A DNA stretch of 45,493 nt from Candidatus Roizmanbacteria bacterium RIFCSPHIGHO2_12_FULL_38_13. Its GTDB lineage: Bacteria; Patescibacteriota; Microgenomatia; UBA1406; GWC2-37-13. Of the stretch, positions 32,580 through 42,866 are shown piece after piece; the first letter of the stretch is position 1; each line of letters opens with the position of its first letter. Below the pieces are notes generated by a model that saw only the letters and a program-made list of their open reading frames with translations, did not search any database and had not been told where the DNA came from. The DNA lies in assembly GCA_001789555.1 (NCBI GenBank), contig MFZZ01000043.1:1-45493 (forward strand). Reading direction: 5' to 3'. A program made the position numbers and the translations under genes.

Positions 32580-32690
32580 ATGCGTTCAAAAAAACCATTT
32601 ATCGTAGGCACTGCCAAGAAAATTCTTTCCTATTTCGGATCACATCTAAATCAGCTTATCATGGGGAAATCTGTTGAAATATATTTATGA
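32580..32690 (+). CDS. 36-residue ORF coupled to carA, possible leader peptide
   Basis: Encodes MRSKKPFIVGTAKKILSYFG and 16 more residues, ending TTA TGA, where the TGA overlaps the carA ATG (ATGA, 32687-32690). It lies directly behind a good promoter. Its base composition rises relative to the AT-rich DNA before it, as expected of coding DNA. The peptide is basic and amphipathic with no run of arginine or pyrimidine-related codons, so classical attenuation is not obvious. It may be a small protein, a translational-coupling device or a chance frame. If carA starts at a different codon, the coupling argument weakens. Confidence 0.5.
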   Translation: MRSKKPFIVGTAKKILSYFGSHLNQLIMGKSVEIYL

Positions 32691-33799
32691 AATCCAAACA
32701 AGCAAGACTAGTAATGCAGGACGGAAGCAGTTTCGTTGGAATGAATTTTGGACATCACTCCTCGGTTGCCGGCGAAGTAGTTTTTACAACCGGCATGGTA
32801 GGTTATCCGGAAAGTATGACTGACCCTTCTTATCGCGGACAGATACTCATATTCACCTATCCTCTCATAGGAAATTATGGTGTGCCGGAAAATCAATCAT
32901 GGGAGTCAAGACAAATAAATGTTGCCGGTATCGTGGTCTCCACTTACATCGATGACAATTCTCATCCAAGCTCAACTCGAACTCTTGGCGAGTGGTTGAA
33001 ATCAGAAAAAAAGCCTGGAATTGAGATTAAAGACACGAGGCTCCTGACACAGAAACTTCGTGAAAAGGGCGCAATGCTCGGGAAAATAATTATTGACAAA
33101 GACATACCCTGGTATGACCCAAACGTAATAAATATCGTCGACGAGGTCTCGACTAAAAGCGTCTATACTGTGACTCCGGAAAACACAAAAAAAACGAAAA
33201 AAATTGTACTTATCGATTGCGGTCAGAAACGAAATATCGTTCGTTCACTTGTGAGGCATGGTGCGACAGTGACTGTAGTTCCTTGGGATTTTGATCTTAC
33301 AAAATATAACAAAACATATGACGGTGTAGTGGTCTCAAACGGTCCCGGCGATCCAAAAATAGTTAAATCGACTATTGCTACTGTCGCGGCTTTATTAAAG
33401 AAAAATACTCCGGTTCTAGGTATTTGTTTAGGACACCAAATTCTTGCTTTAGCGGCCGGGGGCGACACGTATAAACTCAAATATGGTCACCGTAGCCAAA
33501 ATCAGCCATGTAAAATACACGACGGTTCGGAGAAGTACTTTCTGACTACGCAAAACCATGGTTTTGCCGTAGGTAAAATCCCGAAAGGTTTTCAAGAATG
33601 GTTCTCAAATGGCAACGACGGGACAAACGAAGGTATAATTCATGCACGTTGGCCGTTTATGTCCGTTCAGTTTCACCCAGAAGCTTTCCCAGGTCCAAAC
33701 GACACCAGATGGATATTTGATTATTTTCTAAAAAAAACTGGATTATTACGTCATCCTGAATTTATTTCAGGATCTGATCCCGAAACTAGTTCGGGATGA
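32687..33799 (+). CDS. carA: carbamoyl-phosphate synthase small (glutaminase) subunit
   Basis: 370 residues. The N-terminal CarA domain (VAGEVVFTTGMVGYPESMTD) is followed by a class-I glutamine amidotransferase domain with GICLGHQILALAAGG (nucleophile Cys about 247), SVQFHPEAFPG (His/Glu) and the interdomain loop GPGDPK. It hydrolyses glutamine and channels ammonia to CarB to make carbamoyl phosphate for pyrimidines and arginine. The last 18 residues (LLRHPEFISGSDPETSSG) and the stop codon come from the palindromic element at 33750-33800, so the native C-terminus was probably shorter. The gap to carB is 12 bases. Confidence 0.95.
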   Translation: MKSKQARLVMQDGSSFVGMNFGHHSSVAGEVVFTTGMVGYPESMTDPSYRGQILIFTYPLIGNYGVPENQSWESRQINVAGIVVSTYIDDNSHPSSTRTLGEWLKSEKKPGIEIKDTRLLTQKLREKGAMLGKIIIDKDIPWYDPNVINIVDEVSTKSVYTVTPENTKKTKKIVLIDCGQKRNIVRSLVRHGATVTVVPWDFDLTKYNKTYDGVVVSNGPGDPKIVKSTIATVAALLKKNTPVLGICLGHQILALAAGGDTYKLKYGHRSQNQPCKIHDGSEKYFLTTQNHGFAVGKIPKGFQEWFSNGNDGTNEGIIHARWPFMSVQFHPEAFPGPNDTRWIFDYFLKKTGLLRHPEFISGSDPETSSG

Positions 33800-33811: not shown

Positions 33812-36800
33812 ATGAAAAAAATTAAAAAAGTACTAATCCTAGGCTCCGGAGCTTTAAAAATAGGTCAAGCCGGAGAGTTTGACTACTCGGGTTCACAGGC
33901 AATAAAAGCTCTGAAAGAAGAAGGGATAAAGTCTGTCGTAATTAATCCAAATATTGCTACAGTTCAAACGTCCCAGTTTTTGGCGGATCGAGTATATTTT
34001 CATCCCGTTACTCCCTACTTTGTAGAAAAAATCATACTGAAAGAAAAACCCGATGGTATCTTTCTTTCATTTGGAGGTCAAACGGCCCTCAACTGTGGAG
34101 TAGAACTTTATAAATCCGGTGTTTTGAAAAAAAATAATGTCCGGGTTCTAGGCAGTCCTATTGAATCGATAATATTAACAGAAGACCGTGATGAATTTGC
34201 AAAACATCTTAAAAAAATTCGTCAAATGACTCCGATAAGTTTTGCGGTCACTACGGAAAAATCTGCGCTTGATGCTGCTGAAAAGATCGGTTACCCTGTC
34301 ATGATGCGTTCAGCGTTTGCGCTTGGCGGTCAAGGATCGGGAGTTGTTCGCAATAAAGAAGAAATGACACTTCATGCAAAAGAAGCTTTTGCCTTTTCTC
34401 CGCAAATCTTGGTGGAACAATACCTGCATCACTACAAGGAAGTTGAATACGAGGTCGTTCGGGATCGTGATGACAATTGTGTGACAGTCTGTAACATGGA
34501 AAACTTTGATCCTCTTGGCATTCATACCGGTGAGTCGATAGTTGTTGCTCCTTCACAGACATTGACAAATTTTGAGTATCATACTTTACGACGAGCTTCT
34601 ATAGATATTGTTAGAAGTCTTGGAATTATCGGAGAGTGCAATATTCAGTTTGCATTAAATCCCAACCCTAAAAATAAGTTAAACAGTGAAGACACGGCGC
34701 CTATCGAATATGCCGTTATCGAGGTCAATGCCAGGCTTTCACGCTCGTCTGCCCTGGCCTCGAAAGCAACAGGATATCCGCTGGCATACGTTGCAGCGAA
34801 ACTTGCACTCGGTAAAAGATTGTGGGAGATAAAAAATCAGGTTACTCAAGTTACGCAGTCATTTTTTGAACCGGCATTGGACTATGTCGTGGTAAAGTTT
34901 CCTCGCTGGGACATAGAAAAGTTTAAAGGAGCTGACGAACGTATCGGCAGCAGTATGAAATCGGTGGGTGAAGTCATGGGTATAGGTAGAACTTTCCCGG
35001 AAGCTTTACAAAAGGCCGTACGCATGCTGGAAATTGGAGTAACGAGTGCGTCTTCGACGAAACTGCTTGAAGACGATAAAAATGACACAGATTTAAACAA
35101 AATAATTGCCGATCATATCAGGCGCCCCACTCCCAAACGGTTGTTTGCAATTTGTTACGCCCTATATAGAAACATTTCGATTGAAGAGCTTCATAAAATG
35201 ACCGGTATCACAAAATGGTTTTTACAGGAACTTCAGAAAATCGTCGATGTATACAAACATCTTCATAATCAGAAAGGCAGTTTGACGTCATTAACCACCG
35301 AAGATCTGATTTGGTTCAAACGGATGGGTGTCACTGATAGCGAGATCGCCAAACAATTTAAAACAAAAGAAATTACTGTTCGCGCATATCGTAAGAAAAA
35401 AAATGTCACACCGGCAATATTTCAGATCGACACATTGGCTGCAGAATTTCCGGCAAAAACAAATTACCTTTATACCACCTATCACGGCAGCCATCATGAT
35501 GTAAAACCACTTCATAAAAAAGGCGTCATCATTTTGGGATCAGGACCATACAGAATTGGATCTTCCGTAGAATTTGACTGGAGTTGTGTCAGCACGGCAA
35601 TGCGGCTGTCAAAATATAAAAAAGCGTCGATTATTATAAACTGCAATCCAGAAACCGTGTCAACAGACTACGATATGAGTGCGAGACTGTATTTTGAGGA
35701 GCTCAATCTGGAGCGCGTTATGGATATTTATGAGTTTGAGAAGTCGTTTGGTCTTGTAGTTTCTGTTGGGGGTCAGACACCAAACAATCTGGCACACGAG
35801 TTACATAAATATAAACTACCGCTTCTTGGCACCTCTGCAGTCAATATCGATCGGGCCGAAGACAGGAATATATTTTCGGAAGTGCTTGACAAACTGGGTA
35901 TCAGGCAGCCTCGTTGGGTAAGCGCAACGACCGAAAAACAGGCCATAGATTTTTCAAAAACGGTTGGATTTCCGGTTTTAGTCAGACCATCATATGTGCT
36001 TTCAGGTAGCGCTATGAATATTTGTGAAACCTCGGAAGAGCTTTCGGCGTTTTTACAAAAAGCTTCAAAAGTAAATACCAATCATCCTGTGACTGTTTCC
36101 AAATTTTGGGAAAACGCCAGTGAAATCGAACTTGACGCCGTCGCCCAAAACGGGCAAATCGTGCTGTATGCTCTTTCAGAGCATCTGGAGCAAGCCGGAG
36201 TCCATTCCGGAGATGCAACGATCATCTTCCCTGCTCAAAGAGTATATTTGGCAACAGCACAAAAAATCATTGATGCCGCGAAAAAACTTGCCAAGGAATA
36301 TGCGATCACCGGTCCATTTAATATACAATTTTTGGCAAGAGAAGATACGACCGTATCTGTCATTGAAATGAATCTTCGGGCTTCCCGGACTTTCCCGCTG
36401 ATCTCAAAAGGCAGCGGTTACAACTTCGCGTTCACTGTGGTCGACTCTTTTTTTGGAAAGGCAATAAAACATAAATATGAATACCCAAGCTATAGCGTCA
36501 TAAAAGCTCCTCAATTTTCATTTTCCAGGTTAACAGGTGCTGATCCGATATTGCGGGTAGAAATGGCTTCGACCGGTGAGGTCGGTTGTTTTGGTCCGGA
36601 TGTCAAAGCGGCATTTCTTACATCCATGCTGGCAGTCGGGCATGTAATTCCCAAAAAAGCAGTGTTACTTTCTGTTGGTAATGCATACAAGGAAGATTTT
36701 GCATCATACATGCAAATTCTGCATAACTTGGGCTACACACTTTACACAACCGAAGGCACGAGTAGTTTTCTCAAACACAGACTTAATATTCAGACAAAGT

Positions 36801-37096
36801 CCGTGCCAAAAGGCTATCAGGGTGGGGCACAAACCGTAGTTGACTTAATTCAAAATGGCATAGTGGATTGTGTAATCAATATTCGCGATAAGAAAGCTCT
36901 AAAAAACGGTGAGCGCATTTATAAAAAAGAAATAACAGACGGTTTCAAAATACGCAGGGCATCGGCCGATCACAATATTCCATTAATTACGAACATTCAT
37001 GCGGCCAAACTCTTCGTGTCATCATTAAAATATAATAATCTGAATAAATTACCAATTGAACCTTGGGATCATTATGTTCCAGTTGTTAAAAATTAA
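33812..37096 (+). CDS. carB: carbamoyl-phosphate synthase large subunit
   Basis: 1094 residues, the family's usual size. Two homologous ATP-grasp halves can be seen (ALKIGQAGEFDYSGSQAIKA and GSGPYRIGSSVEFDWSCVS), each with its NPE/NPN and VEVNAR/EMNLR loops, and a C-terminal MGS-like allosteric domain (about 945-1060, VLLSVGNAYKEDF, TDGFKIRRASADHN). The first half makes carboxyphosphate and carbamate, the second carbamoyl phosphate. The MGS domain binds UMP or IMP in characterised CarB. A region near 560 (TKEITVRAYRKKKNVTPAIF) is the standard inter-half oligomerisation segment. It follows carA closely. Confidence 0.96.
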   Translation: MKKIKKVLILGSGALKIGQAGEFDYSGSQAIKALKEEGIKSVVINPNIATVQTSQFLADRVYFHPVTPYFVEKIILKEKPDGIFLSFGGQTALNCGVELYKSGVLKKNNVRVLGSPIESIILTEDRDEFAKHLKKIRQMTPISFAVTTEKSALDAAEKIGYPVMMRSAFALGGQGSGVVRNKEEMTLHAKEAFAFSPQILVEQYLHHYKEVEYEVVRDRDDNCVTVCNMENFDPLGIHTGESIVVAPSQTLTNFEYHTLRRASIDIVRSLGIIGECNIQFALNPNPKNKLNSEDTAPIEYAVIEVNARLSRSSALASKATGYPLAYVAAKLALGKRLWEIKNQVTQVTQSFFEPALDYVVVKFPRWDIEKFKGADERIGSSMKSVGEVMGIGRTFPEALQKAVRMLEIGVTSASSTKLLEDDKNDTDLNKIIADHIRRPTPKRLFAICYALYRNISIEELHKMTGITKWFLQELQKIVDVYKHLHNQKGSLTSLTTEDLIWFKRMGVTDSEIAKQFKTKEITVRAYRKKKNVTPAIFQIDTLAAEFPAKTNYLYTTYHGSHHDVKPLHKKGVIILGSGPYRIGSSVEFDWSCVSTAMRLSKYKKASIIINCNPETVSTDYDMSARLYFEELNLERVMDIYEFEKSFGLVVSVGGQTPNNLAHELHKYKLPLLGTSAVNIDRAEDRNIFSEVLDKLGIRQPRWVSATTEKQAIDFSKTVGFPVLVRPSYVLSGSAMNICETSEELSAFLQKASKVNTNHPVTVSKFWENASEIELDAVAQNGQIVLYALSEHLEQAGVHSGDATIIFPAQRVYLATAQKIIDAAKKLAKEYAITGPFNIQFLAREDTTVSVIEMNLRASRTFPLISKGSGYNFAFTVVDSFFGKAIKHKYEYPSYSVIKAPQFSFSRLTGADPILRVEMASTGEVGCFGPDVKAAFLTSMLAVGHVIPKKAVLLSVGNAYKEDFASYMQILHNLGYTLYTTEGTSSFLKHRLNIQTKSVPKGYQGGAQTVVDLIQNGIVDCVINIRDKKALKNGERIYKKEITDGFKIRRASADHNIPLITNIHAAKLFVSSLKYNNLNKLPIEPWDHYVPVVKN

Positions 37097-37245: not shown

Positions 37246-38187
37246 ATGAAAAAAATAAACGGTCGTTTTTATAAACAAAATATTTTGAGCACCGAACAAT
37301 TTACCAAATCAGATATTGATACGGTTTTTAAGCTTGCAATCAATTATCGAAAAAAAGTTGAATCTGGTAAAGCGATCACCGATCTGAAAGGAAAAATTCT
37401 CACTGCTCTATTTTATGAACCAAGTAGTAGAACATTTGGATCGTTTATCGCAGCGATGCAAAGGTTAGGAGGCGGAGTGATACCAATTCAGGGAATTACC
37501 TTTTCCTCCGTCTCAAAAGGTGAAACCCTCGAGGACACAATTAGGGTTTTTGCCAATTATTCAGATGTCATAGCTATGAGACACAACGAAACTGGTGCTG
37601 CCCAAAAAGCAGCCGATGTCTCACCTGTCCCTATTTTGAATGCCGGCGACGGTGTTGGTGAACACCCGACTCAAGGACTTCTTGATCTTTTGACAATAAA
37701 AGAACGTCTAGGTAGATTGGATAAAATACATATTGCCATGGTTGGCGATTTGAAATATGGCAGGACAGTTCATTCGCTCACAAAACTTCTTTTGCTTTTC
37801 CAAAATATTACTTTTACGTTTATCTCTCCTCCGCTTTCGCCGATGCCGGATGAGATTTTGAAAATGGTCCGAAAAGTCGGAGCAAAAATCCAAAAAAAAT
37901 CAGCAATCGTCGACATCATCAAAGACATCGATGTGATTTACATGACGCGGATTCAAAAAGAAAGAATGGATCCAAAAATTTACAAAAAGATGAAGAATAT
38001 GTTTATCCTCGATGCAAAACTAGCAAACAAGATGAAAAAAAACTCGATCATCTTGCACCCGCTTCCTAGAATCGGAGAAATAACTACCGAAGTTGATAAA
38101 AATCCAAGATCGGTTTATTTGACTCACCAGATGAGAAGTGGTATGTTTGTGAGAATGGCGCTTTTAAAGCTTATTTTGACGAAGTGA
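37246..38187 (+). CDS. pyrB: aspartate carbamoyltransferase catalytic chain
   Basis: 313 residues. Carbamoyl-phosphate binding EPSSRTFGSF (the S-x-R-T loop), the HPTQGLLDL segment, GDLKYGRTVHSL and the C-terminal HPLPRIGEI are all present. It joins carbamoyl phosphate and aspartate to N-carbamoylaspartate, the first committed pyrimidine step. SSRT replaces the commoner STRT; this is a mild variant seen in the family. It is third in the carA-carB-pyrB set and separated from carB by an inverted-repeat element. No regulatory chain (pyrI) is present. Its stop is one base from the stop of the convergent pyrC. Confidence 0.94.
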   Translation: MKKINGRFYKQNILSTEQFTKSDIDTVFKLAINYRKKVESGKAITDLKGKILTALFYEPSSRTFGSFIAAMQRLGGGVIPIQGITFSSVSKGETLEDTIRVFANYSDVIAMRHNETGAAQKAADVSPVPILNAGDGVGEHPTQGLLDLLTIKERLGRLDKIHIAMVGDLKYGRTVHSLTKLLLLFQNITFTFISPPLSPMPDEILKMVRKVGAKIQKKSAIVDIIKDIDVIYMTRIQKERMDPKIYKKMKNMFILDAKLANKMKKNSIILHPLPRIGEITTEVDKNPRSVYLTHQMRSGMFVRMALLKLILTK

Positions 38188-38188
38188 A

Positions 38189-39535
38189 TTATTTTTTTCT
38201 TTTCAGCCAAAGGCCTTTTTTCACTGTGAGGATTTTACCGTTTTCATACACAAGCTCCCCCCGCAAAAAAGTGGCTTGTGGACGACCAATCAATTTCATG
38301 CCATCGTATGCCGACCACTTAAGTTTGGTAAATAGTTCTTCCCGTTTTACTTTCCAGGAATTTTTGACATCGATAATCACAAAATCAGCGTCATTTCCGA
38401 CTTTAATGCCCGACTTTTGTGAATGGCGAAAAAAGTTGGCGACATTGGTCGAGCTCATCTTTGCAAGTCTCATGAGTCCTTCTTCCAATGTCTTTTTACC
38501 AAATTGTCGAACCCATCCGGTGATAAATACAGCAACTGACTCTTGAATGCCGGGTGTACCACTTGCTGCCTGCCAGATATCCCCTTTCTTTTCATCAAGT
38601 AAATGCGGAGTGTGTTCCGAACAAAAACCGTCAATTCTTCCTTCACGCACCATTTCCCATAGTTTTTTATTTACTTTTGGAGTTCGTAAAGCTGGACTCA
38701 CCTTAATTAAGGTTCCATATTTTTTGTAATCTTTTGTCGTAAAAAAAAGTTGATAACCGGTTACCTCTCCAGCTGCAACTAATCCTTGTTTTCTGGCATA
38801 ATCAATTGCGTCAAATTCGCCTTCGGTACTTGCATGCAGAATCCAGAGTTTTGTACCAAAATATTTTGCCAAAATTACTGCTTCCCAGGCGGCCATCTCC
38901 ACAACCATCTCATTGCGTGCATCTGAATATGCAAGTATATTTTTTTCTTTTTTCCTTGCCTCTTCCCTGCTCGTTACCAAATCCTGATTTTCTGCGTGGA
39001 CGAGAACCGGATAACCACGGCGCGCGGCAATTTCCCAAATTTTTGCCTGATCGGATAAGTTTGGAATTGTAGTTGGCGTGGTTTGATGGCCAGCCGTAAA
39101 AACCTTGACCCCGTTGATTTCAAGCGGATTGGCCTTCTCAAGTTCGGGAATGTCTTTAACTGAAGCTCCAAAATTTATAGCAAAATCACATAATGATTTT
39201 TTTTTATACCGCTCAATTTGTTCACGAAGCAGTTTGACAGTGGTTGTAGGCGGCTTGGTATTTGGCATGTCAAAAACCGTAGTAAAGCCTCCGGCAAGCG
39301 CTGCTCGCGTACCGTGTGGAATATCCTCTTTATGTTCCAAACCGGGTTCACGAAAATGGCCATGAGTTTCGATAAGTCCCGGCAAGACATATTTGCCTTT
39401 TGCATCATAAGCTTTTGAATAACCCTTTCCTTTTTTAATTGCAGTAATTTTTCCATTTGAAAACAGTATTGAGCCCTCAATAATTTTTTCAGGTGTAACG
39501 ATTTTAACGTTTTTAATCTCACTATATTGATCCAT
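38189..39535 (-). CDS. pyrC: dihydroorotase, class I
   Basis: 448 residues of the amidohydrolase fold. The metal site is visible: GLIETHGHFREPG (H-x-H), HAENQD, LHASTEGE and SEHTPH (catalytic Asp equivalents nearby), and NGVKVFTAG carries the lysine usually carboxylated. It cyclises N-carbamoylaspartate to dihydroorotate. The length and order fit class-I bacterial dihydroorotases (often named PyrC), not allantoinase, given the neighbours. It is last in the minus-strand set argG, flavoprotein, pyrC, with a 14-base gap upstream. Its stop nearly touches pyrB's, so transcription must terminate or run antisense across it. Confidence 0.92.
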   Translation of the reverse strand: MDQYSEIKNVKIVTPEKIIEGSILFSNGKITAIKKGKGYSKAYDAKGKYVLPGLIETHGHFREPGLEHKEDIPHGTRAALAGGFTTVFDMPNTKPPTTTVKLLREQIERYKKKSLCDFAINFGASVKDIPELEKANPLEINGVKVFTAGHQTTPTTIPNLSDQAKIWEIAARRGYPVLVHAENQDLVTSREEARKKEKNILAYSDARNEMVVEMAAWEAVILAKYFGTKLWILHASTEGEFDAIDYARKQGLVAAGEVTGYQLFFTTKDYKKYGTLIKVSPALRTPKVNKKLWEMVREGRIDGFCSEHTPHLLDEKKGDIWQAASGTPGIQESVAVFITGWVRQFGKKTLEEGLMRLAKMSSTNVANFFRHSQKSGIKVGNDADFVIIDVKNSWKVKREELFTKLKWSAYDGMKLIGRPQATFLRGELVYENGKILTVKKGLWLKRKK

Positions 39536-39549
39536 AGTTACTCTTTCTT

Positions 39550-41190
39550 CTACAATTTTATTGTTGGACGAACAATAGTTTTAATTTTCCCACTTACGTT
39601 TTTGACAATTATGTTTTTCTCCCATTTTTTATTCATTTTTGGATAATCGCTTCTGAAATGCGCTCCCCTGCTTTCCTTGCGTACAATTGCGCAGGCAATG
39701 ATGATTCTTGCGAGTTTGACCATTTCAAATGTTTCAAGTACTGGCTGTAGAGTCTTTTTTGTAGCTTTCATTTTTGCCGCTTTTTTAATCAAAGATTCTA
39801 TGTCTTCTGCAGCGGACACCAGGGTTTTTTCATCTCTGACAATCCCTACCTTGTCCCACATTATTGATCCCAACTCTTTTCTTATTTCCTTAAATGAAAT
39901 TCCCTTTGTTCTTTTTACAAGATCGTCAAGTCGTTTGGTTTCGTCTTTTATTATTTTGTCGGAAAATTTTCTGTGCTTGATTTTACTGACAAATATACTT
40001 GAGCTTATTCCGGTACGTCTCGCAAACACTTGTCCCTCTGCAAGAGAATTACCTCCCAGTCTATTTGCACCGTGAATGCCTGTTCCTACTTCACCGATGG
40101 CATAAAATCCAGGAATATTTGTTTCACCCCACTCATTGAATCTGATTCCGCCCATCATATGGTGCATCGTTGGAGTAATCTCCATCATTTCTCGTGAAAT
40201 ATCGACACCGTATTTTTTAAACTTGGCATACACTTCAGGAATATGTTTTTTAATATCTTTTAATCCTAGTTCACGAACGTCTAAATACACTCCTCCATGT
40301 TTTGTGCCGCGGCCTTCCTGGACTTCGGTATATATCGCGCGAGCAACTTCATCTCGACCCGCAAGTTCCATCCTTTCCGGTTGGTATCTTTTCATAAAAC
40401 GCTCACCCTTGCTATTTATCAGCTTTCCTTTGTGACCACGGACTTTTTCTGTGATAAGGCTTCCCTTCTCCGATTCCGGAAAAGCCATTCCTGTCGGATG
40501 AAACTGAATGAATTCCATGTCCTGCAGTTCGGCGCCAATATTAAACCCCCAAACATATCCTTCACCAGTATTACTGGGTTCATTTGAAGTAATTTTATAT
40601 AACTGACCTGCCCCACCGGCTGCGGCAATAACCGCTTTTGTATGGAAAAAAACCGGCCTGTTATTTTTCTGATTAAAAGCATAAACGCCGTAAACTCCTT
40701 TTTTATCCGCAAATATTTTTGTTACAAAGTAATGCGCATAAAATGGTACTTTGAGTTTTTTGACCTCTGAAGCAAGTCCATGCATCATTTCTCGACCGGT
40801 ATAATCACCCGCACATAAATTTAACGGGGCCGATTGTTTCCCTCCTGCCCATGTATAAAATGAGCCATCGGGAAGTCGATCAAATTTAACACCGTACGAC
40901 ACCAAATCATAAATTCTATCTGGCATTTCATGAGTGAAAATATGTACCAGTTTGTGATTATTTAAATACCATCCCCCTTTGATTGTATCCTGATAATGTT
41001 GTTCGGGACTTGCTGGTGGTTTTATTGCTACATTGAGTCCGCCCATTGCCTTTTCTGTATGTGCTCGCCCAAACGGTTCTTTAGAAATAACTGCCAGTCT
41101 TGCTCCCATTTTTACCGCCTCAATTGAAGCTCGAAGACCTGCTCCTCCTGCGCCGATAACAACAATATCAGTAGTTATGGTTTTAATCAT
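39550..41190 (-). CDS. FAD-dependent fumarate reductase/succinate dehydrogenase-like flavoprotein
   Basis: 546 residues. FAD-binding VVIGAGGAGLRASIEA is at the N-terminus and the fumarate site follows: LQDMEFIQFHPTGMAF, GRDEVARAI and HHMMGGIRFNEWGET, then GEVGTGIHGANRLGGNSLAE and the C-terminal RKESRGAHFRSDYP. It resembles the FrdA/TfrA (thiol:fumarate reductase) group more than NadB. No iron-sulfur or membrane subunit gene is next to it. It lies between argG and pyrC and could handle fumarate or serve the missing dihydroorotate oxidation; that is inference. An L-aspartate oxidase function is an alternative. Confidence 0.85.
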   Translation of the reverse strand: MIKTITTDIVVIGAGGAGLRASIEAVKMGARLAVISKEPFGRAHTEKAMGGLNVAIKPPASPEQHYQDTIKGGWYLNNHKLVHIFTHEMPDRIYDLVSYGVKFDRLPDGSFYTWAGGKQSAPLNLCAGDYTGREMMHGLASEVKKLKVPFYAHYFVTKIFADKKGVYGVYAFNQKNNRPVFFHTKAVIAAAGGAGQLYKITSNEPSNTGEGYVWGFNIGAELQDMEFIQFHPTGMAFPESEKGSLITEKVRGHKGKLINSKGERFMKRYQPERMELAGRDEVARAIYTEVQEGRGTKHGGVYLDVRELGLKDIKKHIPEVYAKFKKYGVDISREMMEITPTMHHMMGGIRFNEWGETNIPGFYAIGEVGTGIHGANRLGGNSLAEGQVFARRTGISSSIFVSKIKHRKFSDKIIKDETKRLDDLVKRTKGISFKEIRKELGSIMWDKVGIVRDEKTLVSAAEDIESLIKKAAKMKATKKTLQPVLETFEMVKLARIIIACAIVRKESRGAHFRSDYPKMNKKWEKNIIVKNVSGKIKTIVRPTIKL

Positions 41191-41237: not shown

Positions 41238-42866
41238 TTATCTTATTTTATATGAACTTAGCTTTTCGACAAACTCTTTAGCTACACCTGTACTTGTTAT
41301 GAGTTTAACATTATTTTTCACAGCCATATGACGTATGACCTGTCCATCTGTGATCTCTTTCTCAGTAGTATCTTTTTCATGTAAAGTTGGGATATTGATA
41401 ATAAGGTCAAATCTATTGGCGTCAAGCAAATCTTGCAAATTTGGTTTTTTATGAGGTTGGGATATTTTATGAACCAAGATCGCCTCAATATTATGTGATT
41501 GTAAAAACTTATGAGTCTTGTACGTGGCATAAAGCTTATATTTCATTTCCTTGAGTTGTTTGATTGTAGATAATAGTTTTATTTTATTGTTTCGACGACC
41601 TATTGAAAGCAATACTGTTTTTTCACCTCTTTGAGCAAGCCTCATCTGAAGTGTGAAGAGTTCGATAAATCCCGAAGAGGCATTTTGATTAAATCCAGTT
41701 TGGGCCATGAATGTGGCTAGTTTTTCTTCAAAAATTGAATTTGGTGTATCGACTGCAACTGTTTCTGCAATACCTTTATAAAGTTTTAAGGTGGCTTTAC
41801 CAGTGACTTTTTCATTCACATTATCTATGAAAGCATTAAGGTCATCCATTAGTGGTTCGTACCATAAACCAGCATAGCAAATATAAGCCCATTTTGTGTC
41901 GACTTCAGATTTAAACTCATTTTCAAGACCAGTACACACATATTTTTCGAGATTTCGATGTGCTTGAATGATGATTTCAGCCCCCGGCGCCTCATAAACG
42001 CCACGAACTTTAAGACCCACTACCCGATCTTCAATATGATGAGTTATGCCAATTGCATGTTTTGCTCCTAATTTATTTAGATAAGATATCAAATCAGATA
42101 ATTTTTTTTGTTTTCCGTTGACTACGACCGGAATGCCTTTCACAAACTCAAGTGTTATAAACTCTGGTTTGTCAGGAGCATTTTCAGGTAAATTACAAAT
42201 CGAAAGAATATCTTTAAGAGGTGGTATCATAGCTGGAATCTCGATCTCTCCCCCTTTGCTGGTCACTCCCCACATATTGTCATCGTAAGAATAAGGTTTG
42301 GCAGCAGTTTGCTTGACGGGAATCTTATTTTTTTTTGCATAAATCAGCTCTTCATCACGTCCCATTTTCCACTCGCGTACTGGGGCAATAATCTTAATAT
42401 CTGGATTTAATGCAAGTACGATTCCTTCTATTCGTACCTGGTCATTACCCTTCCCACTGCAACCGTGTGCTATGGTGTCTGCGCCCTCTTGTGAAGCTAT
42501 TTTCACCGCCCATTTAGCAAGAAGTGGGCGTCCAATAGGAGTTGAAAGGTGATAATTACCTTGATATGAAACATTGGCTTTGATGCCTTTTGTTATGTAT
42601 TCATTGGCAAACTCGTCTTTTGCGTTAATCACAAAAGCTTTGATGGCTCCAAGATTGAGTGCCTTCTTGCGAATCAATTCCAGGTCGTCAACTTGTTGTC
42701 CGATATCGACCGTGAGCGTGATTACTTCAGCCTCGTATTCATCTTGAATCCATTTTAGTATGATGGATGTATCCATGCCCCCTGAATACAAAAGAACTAC
42801 TTTTTTTACTTCTCCTTTGTGGCCCTCATATGAAGCGACCTTTATATACTCGGATTTTTTTTGCAT
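41238..42866 (-). CDS. argG: argininosuccinate synthase fused to a CarB-type MGS-like domain
   Basis: 542 residues, about 130 longer than usual ArgG. The N-terminal 415 residues are standard: ATP loop VLLYSGGMDTSIILKW, HGCSGKGNDQVRIEG, and citrulline/aspartate-binding segments to QMRLAQRGE. ArgG joins citrulline and aspartate with ATP. The added C-terminus (about 416-542) has the MGS-like layout of CarB: KTVLLSIGRRNNKIKLL, KYKLYATYKTHKFLQ, FDLIINIPTL, TEKEITDGQVIRHMAVKNNV and STGVAKEFVEKL. The same domain in CarB of this cluster reads VLLSVGNAYKEDF and NIRDKKALKN, then KKEITDGFKIRRASADHN. It leads the argG-flavoprotein-pyrC set. The extension suggests allosteric control by a nucleotide, which is inference. 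Confidence 0.92.
   Translation of the reverse strand: MQKKSEYIKVASYEGHKGEVKKVVLLYSGGMDTSIILKWIQDEYEAEVITLTVDIGQQVDDLELIRKKALNLGAIKAFVINAKDEFANEYITKGIKANVSYQGNYHLSTPIGRPLLAKWAVKIASQEGADTIAHGCSGKGNDQVRIEGIVLALNPDIKIIAPVREWKMGRDEELIYAKKNKIPVKQTAAKPYSYDDNMWGVTSKGGEIEIPAMIPPLKDILSICNLPENAPDKPEFITLEFVKGIPVVVNGKQKKLSDLISYLNKLGAKHAIGITHHIEDRVVGLKVRGVYEAPGAEIIIQAHRNLEKYVCTGLENEFKSEVDTKWAYICYAGLWYEPLMDDLNAFIDNVNEKVTGKATLKLYKGIAETVAVDTPNSIFEEKLATFMAQTGFNQNASSGFIELFTLQMRLAQRGEKTVLLSIGRRNNKIKLLSTIKQLKEMKYKLYATYKTHKFLQSHNIEAILVHKISQPHKKPNLQDLLDANRFDLIINIPTLHEKDTTEKEITDGQVIRHMAVKNNVKLITSTGVAKEFVEKLSSYKIR

Follow-up and report, generated by a model that had tools for sequence, protein, structure and literature searches.

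An argininosuccinate synthase carrying a CarB-type MGS domain may provide an alternative entry into pyrimidine synthesis

Results

The ArgG-MGS fusion and its neighbours

The window, that is, the whole stretch of 45,493 nucleotides analysed here, comes from Candidatus Roizmanbacteria bacterium RIFCSPHIGHO2_12_FULL_38_13 and carries, next to a set of classical pyrimidine genes, an argininosuccinate synthase (ArgG) gene extended by an MGS-like domain (ArgG-MGS):

32687-33799, plus strand: carA
33812-37096, plus strand: carB, with its own MGS domain at 36704-36991 (residues 965-1060, E = 5e-14)
37246-38187, plus strand: pyrB, aspartate carbamoyltransferase (340 bits, cut-off 237)
38189-39535, minus strand: pyrC, dihydroorotase
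39550-41190, minus strand: TfrA-like fumarate reductase/succinate dehydrogenase flavoprotein, directly downstream of ArgG-MGS
41238-42866, minus strand: ArgG-MGS fusion gene, 542 aa
42318-42803, minus strand: ArgG HUP ATP-pyrophosphatase domain, residues 22-183 (PF00764 Arginosuc_synth, E = 4e-63)
41637-42293, minus strand: ArgG C-terminal domain, residues 192-410 (PF20979 Arginosuc_syn_C, E = 8e-62)
41295-41576, minus strand: MGS-like allosteric domain, residues 431-524 (PF02142, E = 7.7e-15)

The first-pass annotation of this DNA had read ArgG as running on without a frame break into a domain of the type that ends CarB, in a window that also encodes pyrB, pyrC, carA and a CarB with its own MGS domain. 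All of this is borne out, and the fusion is genuine. Indeed, the 542 codons form a single unbroken frame, which NCBIfam recognizes as argG (NF001770, 497 bits for a cut-off of 334) and whose tail it matches to the C terminus of CPS large subunits. The PF02142 score of this tail, 55 bits for a cut-off of 24, is far beyond chance, and the tail alone retrieves the MGS domain of human CPS1 from the PDB (2yvq, E = 2.4e-8). An AlphaFold2 model of the whole protein, built with 41 homologues as input (pLDDT 80.8, pTM 0.80), was matched by Foldseek to ArgG structures (1kh1, E = 3e-36), and CPS structures were returned too. Moreover, the full-length fusion recurs in 13 of 56 related genomes (64-77% identity) and at 45 loci of a named-genome collection, so that a frameshift, a chimeric contig or any other assembly artefact is ruled out.

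The protein shares with argininosuccinate synthase (ArgG/ASS1) the fold, the ATP P-loop and the aspartate and citrulline residues, and is 56-58% identical to the canonical ArgGs of its lineage; it differs from them by its C-terminal domain, its pyrimidine gene neighbourhood and its position in a separate ArgG clade. Likewise, the tail has the PF02142 fold and the UMP/IMP-site residues of the CarB allosteric domain, but it is joined to ArgG and not to CPS.

Conservation of the effector and substrate sites

The effector residues predicted in the window protein are K428 (just upstream of the MGS domain), T448, T451, K467, N491 and D507, which align with K954, T974, T977, K993, N1015 and D1025 of E. 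coli CarB; we take K954, T974, N1015 and D1025 to be effector-site positions from the CPS structures. Conservation among the ArgG-MGS proteins is complete (46/46) at the positions of T974, T977, K993 and D1025, and reaches 45/46 for K954 and 39/46 for N1015. In CarB, inhibition by UMP and its binding depend on Thr977 and Lys993 (PMC6245113). In contrast, the CarBs encoded in the carAB-argF operons of Fluviispira and of genome G175 have lost the UMP site: the Lys993 equivalent alone is kept, and PF02142 finds no match. The conservation of these residues suggests that the MGS domain of ArgG-MGS is probably nucleotide-sensing, and a displacement of feedback control from CarB to ArgG is plausible.

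The citrulline and aspartate contacts of human ASS are Tyr87, Asn123, Arg127, Ser189, Glu270, Tyr282 and Thr119 (PMC13289927); by our own motif-based mapping they correspond, in that order, to Y105, N141, R145, T/S202, E279, Y291 and T137 in the window numbering. Among 41 ArgG-MGS sequences, Y105, N141, R145 and E279 are found in all, as is T or S at 202, and Y291 is found in 39. The citrulline, aspartate and ATP residues are invariant or nearly so, the exceptions in the window copy being T137S and E204K. Judging from the citrulline and aspartate contacts conserved in these 41 sequences, argininosuccinate is the likely product.

ArgG-MGS is a paralogue of the arginine enzyme

The window genome encodes a second ArgG, of 416 aa and devoid of MGS domain, between argH and an ornithine carbamoyltransferase (OTC) gene (L037). 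The same argH-argG-argF arrangement is found in G002, and the second ArgG of G053 adjoins a probable argH. ArgG-MGS is a paralogue and probably not the arginine-pathway enzyme; that it might be the sole arginine ArgG is ruled out by the second copy in argH-argG-argF.

The tree of the catalytic part places 44 of the 45 MGS-type rows in one clade (99/92), which includes two Silvanigrellales copies cut short or devoid of tail. The remaining one, from G108, has the same operon type and an MGS domain, and its catalytic part falls among canonical ArgGs; constraining all 45 rows to one clade is rejected (p-AU 0.0006). This implies two separate fusion events or else a replacement of the catalytic part.

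Distribution and partner genes

A survey of ArgG homologues for the same extension, which the first-pass annotation had proposed, shows that the fusion is conserved across phyla. The 45 loci of the named-genome collection belong to Patescibacteria (Roizman-, Gottesman-, Davies-, Pace-, Woese-, Magasanik-, Moran- and others) and to Silvanigrellales, among them the cultured Fluviispira multicolorata. MAGs titled Betaproteobacteria or Proteobacteria (L141, L142, L139) carry an ArgG-MGS that groups with those of Silvanigrellales, and are probably mislabelled. In Spirobacillus, the ArgG of the same operon (L158:9905-11305) has no MGS domain.

In many genomes the usual order around ArgG-MGS is a PRK06886 amidohydrolase gene (NF005365), pyrD, pyrE and pyrF, sometimes with pyrG. 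A full-length PRK06886 gene lies within 10 kb at 35 of the 45 loci and a cut copy at others, the partners scoring up to 503 bits with NF005365 (cut-off 340); most loci with PRK06886, that of the cultured Fluviispira included, also have pyrD, pyrE or pyrF alongside. In a class draw of 137 genomes, picked without regard to either gene, PRK06886 occurs in 7, ArgG-MGS in 9 and both in 6 (Fisher p = 7e-8, kinship ignored). A plasmid search with PRK06886 returned distant amidohydrolases only (26-27% identity). At some loci (L028:7100-7909, L124 and L126) a dimethylargininase (DDAH)/arginine-dihydrolase-like gene, a possible citrulline source, comes right after ArgG-MGS. In several genomes, e.g. Magasanikbacteria and some Roizmanbacteria, argH is near, and the argininosuccinate may then also feed arginine.

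What does PRK06886 do? AtzC, its best sequence match in the PDB (E = 2e-18), is the N-isopropylammelide isopropylaminohydrolase, which takes an alkylamine off a ring. The PRK06886 model (pLDDT 94.3) matches both cytosine deaminase and AtzC (Foldseek TM 0.77-0.84), and its copies keep the HxH, H, H, D pattern of the metal site. PRK06886 resembles this family in sequence and fold but is shorter, and its presumed substrate, argininosuccinate, is different. Furthermore, the position that we aligned to the catalytic Glu217 of cytosine deaminase is a Gln in 28 of 34 sequences, which indicates that PRK06886 is probably not an ordinary deaminase and that its reaction cannot be read from homology. By analogy with AtzC, it could release ornithine from argininosuccinate or from its cyclic form.

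Most carriers have no classical entry genes

Profile searches found no CarB in 14 relatives with ArgG-MGS, and neither pyrB nor pyrC over cut-off in any of them (0/14); four of these genomes are 99% (G019, G108) or 100% (G053, G054) complete, and pyrD is present in most. In six CarB-type control genomes, CarB, ATCase and dihydroorotase matches are all present and PRK06886 is not found. No protein of the 27 genomes reached via the named loci passes the TIGR00670 cut-off for ATCase, and among these genomes CarB was found neither in the 20 Patescibacteria nor in Spirobacillus. OTC-like matches that could be mistaken for ATCase were checked with NCBIfam: it makes those of Fluviispira, G175, G180, G002 and the window genome ornithine carbamoyltransferases, and for the G054 and G039 proteins OTC is the best-scoring family, at about the cut-off.

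In Fluviispira, the argF gene of carA-carB-argF codes for an ornithine carbamoyltransferase (418 bits); an arginine deiminase is present too, with no ATCase over cut-off and no PyrC/dihydroorotase match. Spirobacillus keeps arginine deiminase, ArgG, PRK06886 and pyrD; no CarB, OTC or ATCase was found there, and its matches to PyrC models are weak (best E = 1.8e-5). In both, the gene content indicates that carbamoyl units reach citrulline, but no classical path that would take them to pyrimidines is visible. In most of the Patescibacteria tested, neither OTC nor arginine deiminase gave a match.

There are exceptions. CarAB, PyrB and PyrC are all present, among related carriers, in the window genome only, and the two systems occur together there and in a few other genomes. 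A Bacteriovorax MAG (G179) has both, its ArgG-MGS contig being only 3.7 kb long. In G149, PRK06886 accompanies the classical genes; G200 encodes an ATCase-like but divergent protein (155 bits), and G002 retains a PyrC-like gene together with a CarB devoid of MGS domain in an arginine operon.

Operons without PyrD and related fusions

Three genomes (G005, G032 and G056) have no pyrD and no PRK06886 matches. In these genomes, genes for an 8-oxoguanine-deaminase-like amidohydrolase and for a radical-SAM-like protein, both weak matches, come after ArgG-MGS. Such clusters lie at L035:7604-12671, L028:1038-9530 and L033:3470-7686; uracil phosphoribosyltransferase-like genes are found near the first two, and pyrG (CTP synthase) in the first. 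This variant may run from the amidohydrolase through the radical SAM protein to uracil phosphoribosyltransferase; these clusters support a pyrimidine role of ArgG-MGS and suggest a second way to UMP, through uracil.

The MGS domain is also found fused to an AsnRS/asparagine-synthetase-like class II domain devoid of anticodon domain, in pyr operons or beside pyrG:

L022:7092-8582, AsnRS-like-MGS fusion
L021:10180-11598, AsnRS-like-MGS fusion
L023:8756-10297, AsnRS-like-MGS fusion
L024:5133-6626, AsnRS-like-MGS fusion
L240:1903-3405, AsnRS-like-MGS fusion
L241:634-2100, AsnRS-like-MGS fusion

It occurs in G017, G100 and G094, where no ArgG-MGS was detected. We speculate that it might make dihydroorotate from asparagine, bicarbonate and ATP. 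In the MGS tree, the domains of ArgG and of this AsnRS-like neighbour derive from a single source, separate from CarB (99/97), and the pair carried by one genome (L155) are sisters; this common source and these sister copies suggest that the module was copied between neighbouring entry enzymes. At the locus of one of these fusions, the 639-aa product of L022:5192-7111 is probably PyrD joined to PyrE; it matches DHO_dh and, weakly, a phosphoribosyltransferase.

Discussion

Textbooks present CPS, ATCase and dihydroorotase as the three enzymes that open de novo pyrimidine synthesis, and these steps are treated as near universal. The first-pass annotation had proposed that a regulatory module shared by ArgG and CarB lets one nucleotide signal divide precursors between arginine and pyrimidines. 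The nucleotide control agrees with the conserved effector residues, and the pyrimidine neighbourhood is real; the balancing of the two pathways is not the best reading. We rather propose, with a probability of about 0.68 that applies to the family and not to the window copy, that ArgG-MGS catalyses, under feedback control, the first committed step of a pyrimidine route which bypasses ATCase and dihydroorotase. Given that most carriers are devoid of CarAB, ATCase and dihydroorotase, and that the gene is linked to the amidohydrolase and to pyrD/E/F, ArgG-MGS is more likely to stand in for the classical first steps of pyrimidine synthesis.

In the proposed route, the ArgG part would convert citrulline, aspartate and ATP to argininosuccinate, AMP and PPi, as its conserved substrate residues predict, and UMP or a related nucleotide bound to the MGS domain would slow the enzyme as it does in CarB. 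PRK06886 would then hydrolyse argininosuccinate, or its cyclic form, to ornithine and N-carbamoyl-aspartate or dihydroorotate, and PyrD, PyrE and PyrF would take the product on to UMP. The presumed product, dihydroorotate, and the downstream pyrD/E/F would be those of the classical CarAB-PyrB-PyrC entry, but there would be no carbamoyl transfer from carbamoyl phosphate to aspartate, the carbamoyl unit coming from citrulline instead. With somewhat less assurance than for the role of the enzyme itself, we favor the view that this constitutes an undescribed de novo pathway, present in many Patescibacteria and in cultured Silvanigrellales, in which a UMP-controlled ArgG-MGS and PRK06886 replace CPS, ATCase and dihydroorotase, and of which a PyrD-less variant may exist.

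In Thermococcus kodakarensis, arginine synthetase/OTC supplies carbamoyl phosphate, through which pyrimidine synthesis is entered (PMC13260591). There, as proposed here, the pyrimidine precursors derive from arginine or citrulline; however, T. kodakarensis makes carbamoyl phosphate, whereas the ArgG-MGS carriers are devoid of an ATCase over cut-off. Among open-licence papers we found no description of the fusion or of the route; an earlier description elsewhere is possible.

The most serious competitor, which we nevertheless judge improbable, keeps ArgG-MGS in arginine biosynthesis, its MGS domain letting nucleotides tune arginine against pyrimidine synthesis. The conserved ArgG active site would fit, as would the argH genes found nearby in Magasanikbacteria and some Roizmanbacteria and the carAB-pyrBC genes of the window. 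Against it speak the separate ArgGs in argH-argG-argF or adjoining argH (the window genome, G002 and G053), the operon partners, which are PRK06886 and pyrD/E/F, with no carB and with neither pyrB nor pyrC over cut-off, and the several ArgG-MGS genomes where neither OTC nor CarB was found, so that there is no local demand to balance. Slightly less probable still, the ligase could join aspartate to another ureido compound, such as urea or a carbamoylated compound, the amidohydrolase then deaminating the product to carbamoyl-aspartate or dihydroorotate. Pyrimidine synthesis would in that case also be entered by an alternative route, but from another first substrate. PRK06886 does resemble deaminases as well as AtzC, and many Patescibacteria carriers have no visible citrulline source; however, the citrulline-binding residues are invariant or nearly so and the same as in the canonical ArgGs of the lineage, enzymes that produce citrulline are present in Fluviispira and Spirobacillus, and at the three loci noted above ArgG-MGS is followed by a DDAH/arginine-dihydrolase-like gene.

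The TfrA-like gene directly downstream of ArgG-MGS in the window, and the pyr operon of G020 with TfrA, TfrB and aspartate ammonia-lyase, might evoke another role, in which ArgG-MGS and ArgH supply the fumarate with which a class 1A PyrD or TfrA oxidizes dihydroorotate. We consider this very unlikely: it leaves unexplained both the missing carB, pyrB and pyrC, with pyrD/E/F kept, and the linkage to PRK06886, and TfrA is found with carB and pyrB, in the absence of ArgG-MGS, in L226 and L246. Indeed, the genes at L226:10041-15022 (G020), TfrA/TfrB and an aspartate ammonia-lyase-like one, belong to a classical pyr operon, and in L246 TfrA follows pyrB, which rules out TfrA as a specific partner of ArgG-MGS. 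The least likely reading makes the MGS tail a leftover domain with no regulatory role. The tail-less ArgG of the Spirobacillus operon would agree with it, but the effector residues are nearly invariant over two phyla, and the association with MGS has more than one history, for ArgG and for the AsnRS-like protein alike.

The window copy itself is a special case. Its genome, which is 89% complete, has carAB-pyrB-pyrC alongside ArgG-MGS, and a profile search did not find PRK06886 in it. The substitutions T137S and E204K (codon 204 is AAA) are unique to this copy among 41 sequences, and S137 and K204 are the equivalents of human Thr119 and Glu191. Both are mutation-sensitive positions of human ASS1 (PMC13289927). 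Its deviations at near-invariant positions are high by count, yet it is no outlier, and its MGS effector site is intact. The presence of the classical genes, the missing PRK06886 and the two substitutions make its activity uncertain: that it acts in the proposed pyrimidine-entry role is, on its sequence, somewhat doubtful, and it may be redundant, altered or decaying beside the classical pathway. The pathway claim thus rests on the family and not on the window gene. Elsewhere in the same genome (contig C37, L214:6749-8320), a VKOR domain is fused to a quinone-type dihydroorotate dehydrogenase; frames of similar length are present in many relatives.

In conclusion, genomes devoid of CPS, ATCase and dihydroorotase tend to be labelled pyrimidine auxotrophs. 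If our proposal is true, many episymbiont-type bacteria judged incomplete could make their own UMP, ArgG would have taken over feedback control from CarB, and nucleic acid synthesis would draw directly on arginine/citrulline metabolism. The cultured carrier Fluviispira makes this pyrimidine-entry proposal testable now.
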